A DNA stretch of 64,000 nt from Erythrobasidium yunnanense (taxonomy: Eukaryota > Basidiomycota > Cystobasidiomycetes > Erythrobasidiales > Erythrobasidiaceae): positions 1,370,318 to 1,434,317 of the forward strand of contig BCJC01000002.1 in the NCBI GenBank assembly GCA_001600175.1, in the 5' to 3' direction. Positions 15,695 to 59,125 of this stretch are shown here, one piece after another. Below the pieces are notes generated by a model. The model was not told the DNA's origin. It ran no database searches and saw nothing but the letters and a program-made list of their open reading frames with translations. Within the stretch, counting starts at the first letter, position 1. Each line of letters opens with the position of its first letter. A program made the position numbers and the translations under genes.

Positions 15695-16981
15695 TCATGA
15701 CTTTGTGGGCAGTGCTGCTAAGTGCGGTTCCAGCTTAGGATAAGTAGGTAGAAGAAAGTCGTCTGGTATCTCTTCAAGCTTCGGCGTAAATTTAGCGCTA
15801 AGCCACGGATTGCTTTGCACCAGTCTTGCTATGCTGGCGATACCGCCGATGATGGTGGTGAGCAGCCAACGATGCCAGCGAGAGTAAGGATGGAAGATGC
15901 CAGGAGCGAAGGGAACGATCCATTGTTGCTCTTCTACAAACTTGCGGTAAGCATCTTCGTACCTTTGGAATGCTTTGCGGGGATGTTCTCCTTCTTGTAA
16001 TTTGCTTAGTTCTCCACCTAGCACATACCCTCCTGTCAATGCTAGAGAAGTGCCCATCCCCGTCAAGGGAGTCGGTGCGTAACCTGCATCTCCCAGGACG
16101 ACTACCCTGCCGTGGGACCATTTAGAGAGCTTGATCTGCTTGATCGCTTGAAAGTAGAAGTCGGGAGCGGTTGAGATCGACTCTAGAATCCTCTCTGCTT
16201 GCCATCCTGCACCTTTGAAATGGCTTCGCACCAGATCTTCCTTCATTTTCCTGTCTCCTCTCGACGCAGCTTGCCAAGCTGCTTTCTCGGCATCATCGAT
16301 CGGCATGCATGTAATGCAAGCCCTCATCGACCCGTACGGATCAGGCCTGATGGAGAGGAGCCTCTTGCCTAAGGCGGGGTAGATAGTCCAGAAATCGTCA
16401 TCGTCTGCAACGCGGGGAAGGGTCCAATAGATCGCATACATATTGGCATCGACGATAGTGAGGGTCTCCTGTGGGAATGTCTGCTTCCTGATCTTGGACC
16501 ACTGGCCGTCCGCAGCTACGAGCACGTCGAACGATGCCGTGTCTCCGTTGCTCAGCTTGACCTTGACAGCCTCCTCGCTGTTCTCCAAGACACTCTCGAC
16601 AGTGGTGTCAAAGACGTAGTCGACGCCCTTCAGGTCTTTCGTGGCTCTGTACAGTATAGCCGATAGATCGCCTCGAAGAATCTCGAATTCGGATGTGAGG
16701 GAGGGTGTGAGTTCGTCTTTGACGAGAGGGAAGTTTGCCAAGTGCTTGCCGTTGGTATCTACTAGCTTGGTCCCCTTCTCTGTCGTGTTGTGTTTGCGTA
16801 CTTCTCCCATCAGACCCATTCTCTCGATGACCTTGAGCGCTGTCCCTGTTATGTCGACATTCTGACCGTGTGGGAAGAGTGCAGCGCTCTTCTCTACTAC
16901 CGTCACTCGAGCGCCAGCTTTGGCGAGGTGCCAGGCAAGGGCAGGCCCTGCGATGCCAGCTCCGCTGATCAGGACGCGCAT
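15695..16981 (-). CDS. FAD-dependent aromatic-type monooxygenase, tandem copy B
   Basis: Intronless, 428 residues, starting MRVLISGAGIAGPALAWHLA at ATG 16981. Motifs match copy A block for block: VTVVEKSAALFPHGQNVDI, LVAADGQWSKIRKQ, RLLSIRPDPYGSMRACITC, VVLGDAGYAPTPLTGMG, GGYVLGGELSKLQEGEHPRK. FAD binding and NAD(P)H-dependent hydroxylation are known for the family; the substrate is not predictable. Differences from copy A cluster in the substrate-facing middle and in the last 80 residues (copy B ends LEPHLAALPTKS), suggesting divergence after duplication rather than identical roles. No signal peptide or transmembrane anchor is visible, so a soluble cytosolic enzyme is likely. Confidence 0.92.
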   Translation of the reverse strand: MRVLISGAGIAGPALAWHLAKAGARVTVVEKSAALFPHGQNVDITGTALKVIERMGLMGEVRKHNTTEKGTKLVDTNGKHLANFPLVKDELTPSLTSEFEILRGDLSAILYRATKDLKGVDYVFDTTVESVLENSEEAVKVKLSNGDTASFDVLVAADGQWSKIRKQTFPQETLTIVDANMYAIYWTLPRVADDDDFWTIYPALGKRLLSIRPDPYGSMRACITCMPIDDAEKAAWQAASRGDRKMKEDLVRSHFKGAGWQAERILESISTAPDFYFQAIKQIKLSKWSHGRVVVLGDAGYAPTPLTGMGTSLALTGGYVLGGELSKLQEGEHPRKAFQRYEDAYRKFVEEQQWIVPFAPGIFHPYSRWHRWLLTTIIGGIASIARLVQSNPWLSAKFTPKLEEIPDDFLLPTYPKLEPHLAALPTKS

Positions 16982-17378
16982 CTTGAGGTAAGATCAGAGG
17001 TCAAGATGAGTATGCGATGTTGTGACAGAGCAGAGGAGAGAAGAGGAGCCGAACAGAAGCGATAGCGATGCACGCGAAGTCCTCTAAATTTAGGCGGGAG
17101 ATAGAGGACGGATATAGTCAGGAGCAGAGTCGGTGCGTAGGCAGTATCACGTTGCATGCATGGGTTGGTCAGTCTATCTACGATGTGATTATCCTCTCGT
17201 CGTTGTTAGTCTTTCGTAGGCGGTCGTTCCTGCGAAAAAGGGTGTCCCTGTAGCTCTAGCTCTGACTTTGCCTTGATCATTGATGATTCTGGTCGGCTGA
17301 GTGTATTGATATCACCATCAACTAGCCAGTAGGAAGTGCTTCTGGTCCTGCTGCTGCTACATCTTGCGCGCCGTTTCC
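16982..17378. other. Divergent promoter region: monooxygenase B and PI 4-kinase
   Basis: 397 bases between two divergent start codons. It contains the TAGGCGGGA/TATA-like block at 17084-17099 upstream of monooxygenase B. Nothing else recognisable; no ORF with family resemblance. Confidence 0.55.
17084..17099 (-). promoter_or_regulatory. AT-rich palindrome with CCCGCC block upstream of monooxygenase B
   Basis: Plus-strand 17084-17093 read CTAAATTTAG, followed by GCGGGA; on the gene strand TCCCGCC precedes an AT-rich palindrome about 103 bases before the ATG. It mirrors the block upstream of copy A in order and spacing, with the TATATA core replaced by AAATTT. Confidence 0.45.
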
Positions 17379-55058: not shown

Positions 55059-55941
55059 CTAGCGCGTCTGTACTGCCGCTTGAGGTGGAGGCTCGATCTG
55101 TCGATAGGAAAGCGTGAGTACTGCTTTATTAGGTCGCATAGCAGGAGCGCTTACCAAAGGCGCCTGCGGCTTATTCCCTTCCGCAAACATGCGCTGCATG
55201 AGCACACCAACACCTTCAATGACTCCAAGCAGAACTCCGCAAGCGATTCCTGACGAGATTATCATTTGAGGACCACCTCGCGCTGCCAAACTTCCGCCTG
55301 TCAAGAAGCCAGAGATGATTGCATTCCAAGGATCTTCTTTTTGTCGGTCTGCGCGTATGATGTAAGCAATTATAGTCTTCTCAGGTCCAAAGATTCGTGG
55401 AGCGTACATCCTTTCACGGCACAGTCGAACGTCCTGTTGAAGTATGTCAGCATCTCCCTGTATATAGATAAGAAGATAGACATACGAGAACATGCCTCCC
55501 CAGACACCAAACTAGATCATGCGTCAGCTAATTTTCCTACAAGATGCAAGTAGATGTCGAAGCATACGTTTCCACCCAGCACAGGCGCTCTTGCTTTCAC
55601 AGCTGATATAGCTCCAATCCATTTGTCGCCCTAATTCGTAGTCACACTCAGGCTCAGTTCTTTCGAGCTTTTCCAGCTGAAAGGTGTCGACACACTCTAG
55701 GCGAGTTTCTTGCTCCTTTGATGGAATGCCATATCGTGCCTCCTACGGCTCCCATTGCGAAAGCGCCGCCGCTGTTTTGACCATATTAGCTAATGAATTG
55801 CCAGCTTTTTTGGTCGTCGTTTCGCCGTACAAATCTTGGAGGATGACCCATGGACAGGGATCTCGCGATTGGCTGGGAACAGTATTAGTATCATTGTGGT
55901 ATGCAGAATCCTGGAGGGGTATCGCACTCGTGTCGTGACAT
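55059..55941 (-). CDS. TIM17: TIM23-complex inner membrane translocase subunit TIM17
   Basis: About seven exons, near 160 residues. The first exon is only 14 bases past the ATG (MSRHD), spliced with donor GTGCGA to [18 protein letters not shown], then [60 protein letters not shown] and [20 protein letters not shown]. This is the full Tim17 pattern, including the conserved DPCPW start and Cys residues that form the family disulphide. Tim17 lines the TIM23 channel that imports presequence proteins. A final intron at PQAPL|IEPPPQ is likely; leaving it in would add a 20-residue stretch without breaking the frame. Assigning the start at 55941 rather than an upstream in-frame codon depends on that first splice, which the family start strongly supports. 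Confidence 0.94.
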
Positions 55942-56421: not shown

Positions 56422-57545
56422 ATGCCTGGAAACTTAGCTTTCCTAGGCCCTGGTGTATACTGGCAACAGACATCCCAGACTTCTCCTCGTCAGAAACATA
56501 CGCCGCAGACGGAATCGGAACTAGAACCATGGATAAGATTAGCAAGTGGCACCCTATCCACCCATTGCAGTAGTTATGCAGGAGCGCAACTATACATCAA
56601 GTACATCGACACCCCTGTCTGTCCTTGCGGTATGGTGTTCCACTTCAAGCTCGATTCCGCGGGATCATCAGCTTGTAGAAAGGCGCTCAAAGCCCACATG
56701 TCAAAACATGAGGGTGTGCACTTTTGGGATCTCTCGGCGTCGAAATCCTCACAAGGTCAGCACATACGCTATCTCAATCAACGATACCCCGGTGCGGCTA
56801 TAATACCGTTCGAACGATGGGCTGTACCGCTCACCTACAGAGGAGTAAGCCCTTTCCGGCCTGACAGCAGCCCTACGGCGTTCTGACCGATGTCCATCTC
56901 ACTAGCCGGACAACGTAGCTCAGCCCAAAGCCTTCTTCTTTCGTCACAATGTCATCCTCCCAACTCCTCCGGCATCGATCATGGGCTCTACTATTTCATC
57001 GCCAACACCTGGCTCCCCCCTCTCCTCCCTGAGCGATGCAAGCAGCGAGCACAACCTCGATTCGGAAGAAGACGAGGACGATGAGTGGTTTCAGAATACT
57101 CTGGTTTTGGGCAAGCGAAAGAGATCCAATTCTTGGGAGGACGAGATCTTCTGTGTCTGCAAGCGACCCAACGACGGTAGACGCTATCTAGCGTGTGATT
57201 GCTGCGATTTATGGTGAGTACTCTCATTGGCCGACAACGATGCATCACTGACTCCAACGTCGGAACAGGTTTCACCCATCGTGTCTTGGTATCCCGGAGA
57301 ACGGCATCGATCGCCTTGACGCATGGTACTGTCCGGCATGTCAATTTACCGACGCTGCGGAGGGTTATGAGCTAGCCACACAAGCAGATCCACGACAGAC
57401 AGGAGCAATTCCGCATGTCGCGTCGTTGCGCAGTCCAAATAATGGCTCACGGCGGGGAGTGGATGTAAGAGTCGACCCCATGGTAGTACCAGGACAACAC
57501 GAGATCTCGGAAGTCCCAGTATACGAGATCTCGGACGATGAATGA
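56422..57545 (+). CDS. Unknown PHD-finger protein, tandem copy A
   Basis: Three exons sum to 1,008 bases, 335 residues. C-terminal half: a PHD finger, FCVCKRPNDGRRYLACDCCD then LWFHPSCLGIP and AWYCPACQ, with all C4HC3 ligands, a fold that reads histone H3 tails. N-terminal half: an unfamiliar module, FLGPGVYW ... LYIKYIDTPVCPCGMVFHFK then ACRKALKAHMSKHEGVHFWD and RYPGAAIIPFERW, with a CPC pair and an H-x3-H pair that could bind zinc like a degenerate C2H2 finger. Between them lies a Ser/Pro/Asp/Glu-rich linker with a basic KRKR segment, a possible nuclear signal. A chromatin or transcription role is inferred from PHD plus Cys/His module. Copy B (57940-59125) has the same exon plan and both modules. 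I know no family that joins these modules. Confidence 0.8.
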
Positions 57546-57939
57546 CAGAGCTTCGCGGTCCTCCCGTGGCAGAAGGTTGGCTATCGGACAGGCGCGGTAG
57601 CAAACAGAAATGAAGGTCGGCGTGGGCTAGTAGAAGTGCGGAAGACACTGAGCAATCGCTACTGGGTAAGAGATAGGAATGATCGTCGTTGTGCTACGTT
57701 CAAGCAAGCCCTACTTCGCGTCAAATATGATAATCGTTTCTTGTATTCCTGCCAAACGCCTGCAAGCTGTAGCATCCCGAAATGCTTCAGCAAATGTGTT
57801 ATCCCCAAGCAATCCTTCTCTGCATGCTCAACTCGTCCAAGACGCTCATGAGACGGCATCAGCTGGACCGTTGGTTTCTCGATGCCTGTCTGACCACTTC
57901 TAGGACACTCTTGAAGCTCAAACAGCTCAGAGACGCATC
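57546..57939. other. Spacer between the two PHD genes
   Basis: 394 bases. It does not obviously repeat the sequence upstream of copy A, and no open frame has family resemblance. Confidence 0.5.
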
Positions 57940-59125
57940 ATGGACTCTTTGCATCTCCTCCCATCTCTGCTGCTACTCCTCCTTGATCAAATTGCATGTC
58001 TCCCGAACCATGAGCAAAGCAGCGTCACGCGAGGCCTCAGTTTCCTGGGACCTGGCAGATACTGGGAGCAGTCGCCGACTACCTCTCCTCGATCTCGACA
58101 AAGTCGGTATGTCCCTCGAAGAGAACAGGACTTGGAGCTCTGGATAAGAAGAGCAACCGGAACCTTGTCTTCTAATGCAACCTCCTACATCGGCGCCCTT
58201 CTATACATCAAATACACGGATACGAATGTATGTCCTTGTGGAATGGTGTTCCATTACAATGCCGATGGTGCTGGCAAAGCAGCTTGCAAAAAAGCTCTAA
58301 AGGCCCATCTGCAAACGCATGAAGGCGTGCATTTCTGGGATCTGGCTGCTACTTGTTCGAGCGAAGGAAGACACTTCAAGTACCTGTAGCAACGCTACCC
58401 GGGAGCTGCCATTATACCTTTCGAGAAGTGGACAATACCAGGTGTCTACGGCGGAGTGAGGCTTAATTTCTCCGATGGTCTCGTGAGCTCAGACATATGA
58501 TTCCTTTAGCCTATCAATGTGATGCAGATGAAAGCCTTCTTCTTCGATCCATTTATCCTGCCCTCGACACCTCCGCCCTCAGCCAGGCCGTCTGCCGTAC
58601 CTTTACCAGCGAACACTTCCTCGCTCTCCCCGCTGCCTGATTCAGTCGACGAAGGAGAACACGATGATAAGAGCGAGGAAGATAACTTCAGGGTCGACAG
58701 TCTGCTATCGCCAAGCAGGAAAGCCACACCTGCCGCAGGAAAGCTTTTCTGCATTTGCATGAGGCCGGACGATGCGAACGTTCATCTACAGTGTGAATGC
58801 TGCGCGAGTCGGTGAGGTCGATCCACCACGAGGCCGTCAGCTCCGAGCGCTGATTGAGCGTCTTTTCATCAGGTTTCACCCGGCATGTGTCGCTATCTCG
58901 GAAGGAGAGCTAAAGGCTATCTCCTCTTTCTATTGTCCGACTTGTGAAGTAGCAGACGACGATGCTCGTGCTGGTTTGGCCAGTGGAGCAAGAATCCAAA
59001 CGGGCCCTGAAGTTCCGAGATCGATTCTGCAAGATCCTCCCAGATCTAAGGGCCACTTTCATACACCCAAGAGAGTAGATCCAATGGACCTAAAGTCTGT
59101 GTACGAGCTTTCGGAGCATGAGTGA
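57940..59125 (+). pseudogene. PHD-finger protein, tandem copy B, interrupted by one in-frame TAG
   Basis: Same architecture and intron positions as copy A. Three exons sum to 1,071 bases in one frame, but TAG at 58387-58389 falls where copy A has Asn in RYLNQRYPGAA; the residues either side (HFKYL and QRYPGAAIIPFEKW) are conserved. The N-terminal module keeps FLGPGRYW, YIKYTDTNVCPCGMVFHY and LKAHLQTHEGVHFWD. Beyond the stop the frame remains open and conserved: KAFFF, an acidic linker, and a PHD finger FCICMRPDDANVHLQCECCA, FHPACVAISE, FYCPTCE with all eight ligands, ending SVYELSEHE. Splicing around the TAG as a GT-AG intron does not keep the frame. It is either a recent pseudogene, a truncated 149-residue protein, or read through. 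ATG 57940 adds a hydrophobic leader (MDSLHLLPSLLLLLLDQIAC) absent from copy A. Confidence 0.7.

Follow-up and report, generated by a model that had tools for sequence, protein, structure and literature searches.

The window, by which we mean the whole stretch of 64,000 nucleotides analysed (C2:1370318-1434317; the genome comprises 20.9 Mb in 10 contigs), carries a real and mildly unusual gene pair, in which an intact PHD finger protein with an uncatalogued, probably GRF-derived module (copy A) is followed by a decaying duplicate (copy B). The reading we favour, at a probability of about 0.5, is that copy A is an adaptor combining an H3K4me3-type PHD finger with the GRF-derived module, and that copy B is an old duplicate that was broken later. 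Judged from its sequence, copy A would be a chromatin adaptor of 335 residues, probably nuclear, whose C-terminal PHD finger would dock on H3K4me3 and whose module would contact nucleic acid or a protein partner, so that the protein would connect chromatin marked by H3K4me3 with DNA or with a partner in repair or transcription. As a tandem duplicate, copy B would have been constrained as coding sequence through most of its history, until it acquired a premature stop. If this is true, a GRF-type repair ribbon was re-used next to a histone reader with half of its zinc site replaced, which would offer a compact case for studying how a zinc ribbon persists once two of its ligands are gone, and a fungal candidate for a connection of H3K4me3 with DNA repair or transcription.

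The pair (56422-59125, plus strand) is flanked by a Tim17/22-type frame (minus strand, 55062-55511) and by a KH-domain, vigilin-like gene (plus strand). The two genes lie head to tail and have the common three-exon plan reported in the first-pass annotation, the two introns of each copy interrupting the protein at matching positions and with matching phases. The motifs CPCGMVFH, ALKAHxxxH and RYPGAAIIPF, also listed there, are present in both copies. The three-exon copy A gene (56422-57545), as modelled and translated, is intact, with a stop-free frame and GT-AG introns. Cys and His residues of its exon-1 module are C67, C69, H74, C85, H92, H96, H100 and H114. The C-terminal tails end in VYEISDDE (copy A) and VYELSEHE (copy B), which resemble a SUMO-interacting motif. 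Elsewhere in the window (15698-16993, minus strand), a FAD-dependent monooxygenase-like gene was found (PF01494, E 2e-23).

Table 1. Coordinates of the gene pair and of the compared loci. Positions of copies A and B are those of the window.
Feature	Position	Strand	Content	Basis
Copy A exon 1	56422..56844	+	Start, FLGPGxYW stretch, entire N-terminal Cys/His module	Translation, gene model
Copy A intron 1	56845..56905	+	61 nt, phase 0	Gene model
Copy A exon 2	56906..57213	+	Linker (proline/serine-rich, acidic), basic stretch GKRKRS, first half of PHD finger	Gene model, PF00628
Copy A intron 2	57214..57268	+	55 nt, phase 2; interrupts the W244 codon	Gene model
Copy A exon 3	57269..57545	+	Second half of PHD finger, C-terminal tail with VYEISDDE end, stop	Gene model
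Copy B exon 1	57940..58455	+	Start uncertain: first in-frame ATG at 57940, likeness to copy A from ~58024-58036	
Copy B in-frame TAG	58387..58389	+	In exon 1, one codon ahead of QRYPGAAIIPF	
Copy B intron 1	58456..58509	+	54 nt, phase 0	Gene model
Copy B exon 2	58510..58811	+	Linker, first half of PHD finger	Gene model
Copy B intron 2	58812..58872	+	61 nt, phase 2; split codon is Arg, as compared with Trp in copy A	
Copy B exon 3	58873..59125	+	Second half of PHD finger, tail with VYELSEHE end, stop	Gene model
L023	1507-1656 (C2:2033748-2033894)		Lacks the CxC motif, stop ahead of it; matches copy B module at ~22-23 bits	
L024	1408-2842 (C1, ~387 kb)	-	AlkB-like 2OG-Fe(II) dioxygenase with divergent GRF-type C-terminal tail; intron inside the ribbon	
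L025	C8:661564-661689		GRF zinc finger, 41.7 bits, over curated cut-off; near a glycine/arginine-rich frame	

Copies A and B encode an identical amino acid at 150 of the 324 codons compared. Over these codons pN (0.369) is well below pS (0.753; Fisher p 8e-25), which indicates coding constraint well beyond chance; these values, like all pN and pS figures given here, are averages across both lineages, with synonymous sites near saturation. The duplication is old, and both copies evolved as coding sequence. The best-conserved region is the N-terminal module, with 73 of 108 residues identical (pN 0.224, pS 0.847), as compared with 16/34 in the first stretch, 26/78 in the linker, 20/48 in the PHD finger and 16/58 in the C-terminal tail. 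All eight Cys/His columns of the module are unchanged, at 64% identity. The tail is under little constraint, not clearly different from neutral (p 0.07).

Exon 1 of copy B is interrupted by an in-frame TAG, which was overlooked in the first-pass annotation. This stop weakens the proposal made there, of a family expanded by tandem duplication: the tandem pair is real, and its second member is a disrupted duplicate, not an intact gene, as read from the assembly sequence, in which an error at the TAG codon is possible. Downstream of the TAG, the frame is stop-free to its end across two further exons, and pN (0.425) is again lower than pS (0.718; p 4e-10). In simulations of neutral drift at 0.3 substitutions per site, 216 codons remained stop-free in only 0.15% of 2000 runs. 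Retention of the copy B frame while the synonymous sites became saturated makes it probable that copy B broke late, after long coding constraint. It would offer a natural comparison for copy A, being an old duplicate minus the cage Trp and the frame. Six-frame searches of the same genome with the two modules, in which only the best candidates of the first pass were scored, returned copies A and B alone in one run and, in a second, these two with two weak matches (L023 and L024, see below) and no further clear copy.

Copy B might still yield a protein, either a shortened module that terminates at the TAG or a product of read-through or of splicing around the stop; in line with this, its frame beyond the stop is open and keeps all eight PHD zinc ligands. 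Eleven GT-AG intervals of 45-110 nt span the stop, and four of them (51-102 nt) keep the frame. Splicing around the stop was nevertheless rejected, since the donors of these four are GTGCAT or GTTCGA, whereas the real introns here begin with GTRAG, and since their removal would cut conserved residues out of the protein. Moreover, copy B has no Met at the start position of copy A, an ATG at 57940 would give a leader absent from copy A, and W244 is replaced by Arg. A protein product of copy B is therefore quite improbable. A hydrophobic, leucine-rich stretch is encoded by the upstream frame of copy B at 57940-58020; it has no counterpart in copy A and is probably untranslated.

The break in copy B and the weakly constrained tail would also fit a locus in which both genes are decaying, copy A being non-functional too and the whole a relic. 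We regard this as highly improbable, as copy A is free of stops, has GT-AG introns, and retains all PHD ligands and the cage-type aromatics, and as the module is strongly constrained when averaged over both lineages.

The N-terminal module had been described as unrecognised, and in catalogue searches it remains so. With the whole module exon of copy A as the query, searches of Pfam, NCBIfam and PDB sequences up to E 10 found nothing; in this range the HMMER filters discard most matches above E ~0.1. A 64-residue trim of the module gave a single chance-level match in Pfam (HTH_HVO_0163_N, E 0.12). The GRF profile PF06839 matched neither the whole exon (E up to 10) nor the trimmed module, and PF23549 (Zn_ribbon_GRF_2) was absent from the genome-wide matches. 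Pattern searches gave 2 matches in viral contigs and 26 in prokaryotic contigs, none of which was confirmed as a relative of the module. Two structure predictions were of low confidence (pLDDT 61.0 and 37.5) and placed strands only near residues 70-76 and 99-103; fold searches with the first model returned no clear relative among the matches listed. In the literature, no protein combining GRF and PHD domains was described in the titles and abstract openings covered, taken partly from the top of longer lists, and the only paper found to mention a GRF zinc finger together with a PHD finger was a Brassica QTL study.

A relative was suggested by the genome itself. The copy B module as a query matched locus L024 at E 0.078. 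Immediately upstream of L024 is a match to 2OG-FeII_Oxy_2 (PF13532, E 2.9e-16), and L024 reads in this context as the C-terminal tail of an AlkB-like dioxygenase; the tail has a GRF-like pattern, C-x-C...FWxC...C. When its two exon parts were joined, the tail matched PF06839 at E 0.02 and 15.4 bits, below the cut-off of 25.9; its main exon alone had no Pfam match, and a search of PDB sequences gave four weak matches, none of them a GRF entry. In a reverse search at E up to 10, the L024 tail (a query with one wrong residue) listed, besides the two exons of L024, only copy B (E 0.0024) and copy A (E 0.017).

Copies A and B align with L024 over 54 gap-free columns with scores of 75 and 79, respectively, which were reached by none of 5000 shuffles. 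In this alignment, with the exon junction read from the DNA, the C-x-C-G and FW elements are equally spaced, PxCxCG being present in copy A and FW in both copies. A profile of the two modules scored 24.0-24.3 bits against L024 (best domain 23.7-24.0), as compared with a maximum of 12.5 bits against 20,000 shuffles of L024 and with best domains of 13.3-16.5 bits in six synthetic genomes of 20.9 Mb, which were generated by a Markov chain derived from the window and are less noisy than a real genome. The matches to L024 are not enriched in the columns conserved between A and B (12/36, as compared with 5/18 elsewhere; p 0.46).

Comparison by hhalign gave p 5e-7 for the A+B profile with L024. With a GRF set that was small and in part guessed, the values were p 0.19 for A+B, 0.0037 for A+B+L024 and 0.00076 for L024 alone. 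Thus, the GRF link of the module runs through L024. A clear GRF zinc finger is present in the same genome at L025, a locus that, from its context, presumably encodes topoisomerase III. The score of L024 with the L025 finger was reached by 17 of 5000 shuffles, and those of the copy A and copy B modules by 12 and 770 of 3000 shuffles, respectively; neither copy matched a further locus, L026, in the pairwise test. In PMC9369019, the Top3 proteins of Basidiomycota and of several further fungal phyla are reported to carry zf-GRF, and those of the 26 Ascomycota examined are reported to lack it. The L025 locus would therefore fit a fungus outside the Ascomycota, probably a basidiomycete.

As the module resembles the GRF-like ribbon of an AlkB-like protein, it is more probably a diverged representative of an established class of zinc ribbons, and we consider GRF ancestry of the module somewhat more probable than not. 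The 'new zinc-binding fold' of the first-pass annotation is not borne out by the match in the module's own genome. With the GRF zinc ribbon (PF06839; APE2, NEIL3 and fungal Top3) the module would share C-x-C-G and the FW ahead of the third-ligand position. It differs in being N-terminal and fused to a PHD finger rather than to an enzyme, and in having additional conserved residues H74, C85, H92, H96 and H100.

The strength of this link is limited by a second match, L023. The copy B module matched L023 at E 0.0026, and L023 as a query returned copy B (E 0.005) and not copy A. Its score with the A+B profile was 22.3 bits, and with copy B alone it scored higher than L024 (23.2 and 22.4 bits, respectively); yet the matched part of L023 has no Cys at all. 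In pairwise alignment with copy A, L023 scored 64, which was reached by none of 3000 shuffles, and it did not match L024 (score reached by 1617 of 5000 shuffles). Residues matched by L023 are found in B only at 7 positions, in A only at 1 and in both at 9, as compared with 5, 1 and 12, respectively, for L024. The L023 match is probably due to chance; a distant but real relative of the module is possible. Since a Cys-free sequence scores close to L024, noise in the real genome exceeds that in the decoys, such scores can arise without a shared zinc site, and the GRF link is likely but not proven.

The residues C67 and C69 align with the first two GRF ligands (the C-x-C of L024; C-x-C is also present in L025). 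At the third GRF Cys both copies have Leu; at the fourth, copy A has Ile and copy B Phe, with a conserved His (H114) adjoining, one column off. As only two of the GRF cysteines are left, any metal site would have to draw on other conserved Cys and His residues, and H74, C85, H92, H96, H100 and H114 could be candidate ligands completing it.

The loss of two ligand positions, together with the almost equal score of the Cys-free L023 and the low confidence of both structure models, would be consistent with a small fold in which Cys and His bind no metal and the likeness to L024 is due to chance. However, the invariance of eight Cys/His columns at the divergence given above and the spacing of PxCxCG in copy A and of FW in both copies as in L024 make such a fold unlikely.

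A zinc-binding domain of another origin, for instance an elongated C2H2-like one with C67, C69, H92 and H96 as ligands, would constitute a new domain family. It would account for the failure of the whole exon to match any catalogued domain and for the conservation of all of its Cys and His between the copies. In addition, the segment LKAHMSKHE resembles the pattern with which the helix of a C2H2 finger ends (L-x2-H-x3-H), and the first, low-confidence model predicts two strands followed by a helix (83-93) at that site. Unlike a C2H2 finger (PF00096), however, the module has C-x-C spacing and a long loop before the helix. The list of 28 C2H2 matches in the genome (E up to 0.001) does not include it, PF00096 matched neither exon nor trim, and the likeness to L024 points to GRF. 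Such a domain is thus somewhat unlikely. It is rather doubtful, too, that the module forms a zinc-binding family of its own, in which C67, C69 and conserved His make up an uncatalogued set of ligands, and that its fusion with an H3K4me3 reader created a lineage-specific chromatin protein.

The GRF-derived module of the favoured reading would be joined to a PHD finger whose identity is clear. As in the first-pass annotation, the C-terminal domain of copy A is a PHD finger, with a PF00628 score of 37.7 bits (cut-off 24) and all eight zinc ligands of the Cys4-His-Cys3 set. A search of PDB sequences gave 93 matches at E ≤0.01, and among the best 60 of the 93 three Spp1 chains came first (6j2p, E 2e-14, to 9.3e-13), followed by BPTF and PHF2. 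F223, Y235 and W244 of copy A align with Tyr, Met and Trp of Spp1. In PMC5828529, Spp1 W45A is described as a PHD-finger mutant. By our reading of the alignment, W244 would correspond to Spp1 W45. The positions named here are taken as those of the aromatic cage of Spp1. The Trp ahead of F-H that is typical of H3K4me3 readers is present in copy A and is Arg in copy B, as judged from the same alignment.

The copy A finger most resembles the Spp1-type H3K4me3 readers, sharing with the Spp1/CFP1 PHD the eight ligands, the C-x-C-K-R-P start and the CDxxW-FH centre in addition to the best PDB matches. In contrast to Spp1/CFP1, a COMPASS subunit, the finger of copy A is C-terminal, and the protein encoded by exons 2-3 has no match to CpG_bind_C (PF12269) at E up to 10. 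The PHD finger nearest to that of copy A elsewhere in the genome is at C3:82800-82943 (L013; E 1.2e-9 with the copy A query), and the next frame downstream of it has a weak PF12269 match (E 7.6e-4, under the cut-off). A PHD finger followed by CpG_bind_C is the Spp1/CFP1 layout, and this locus is the probable canonical Spp1/CFP1 gene. As a separate Spp1-like gene is present, copy A was rejected as the COMPASS subunit Spp1. Genome-wide, the family search gave at least 16 PHD matches. Two of the PHD matches, at C4:1665712-1666378 (L001, L018 and L019), are ~530 bases apart on one strand and possibly belong to a double-PHD protein.
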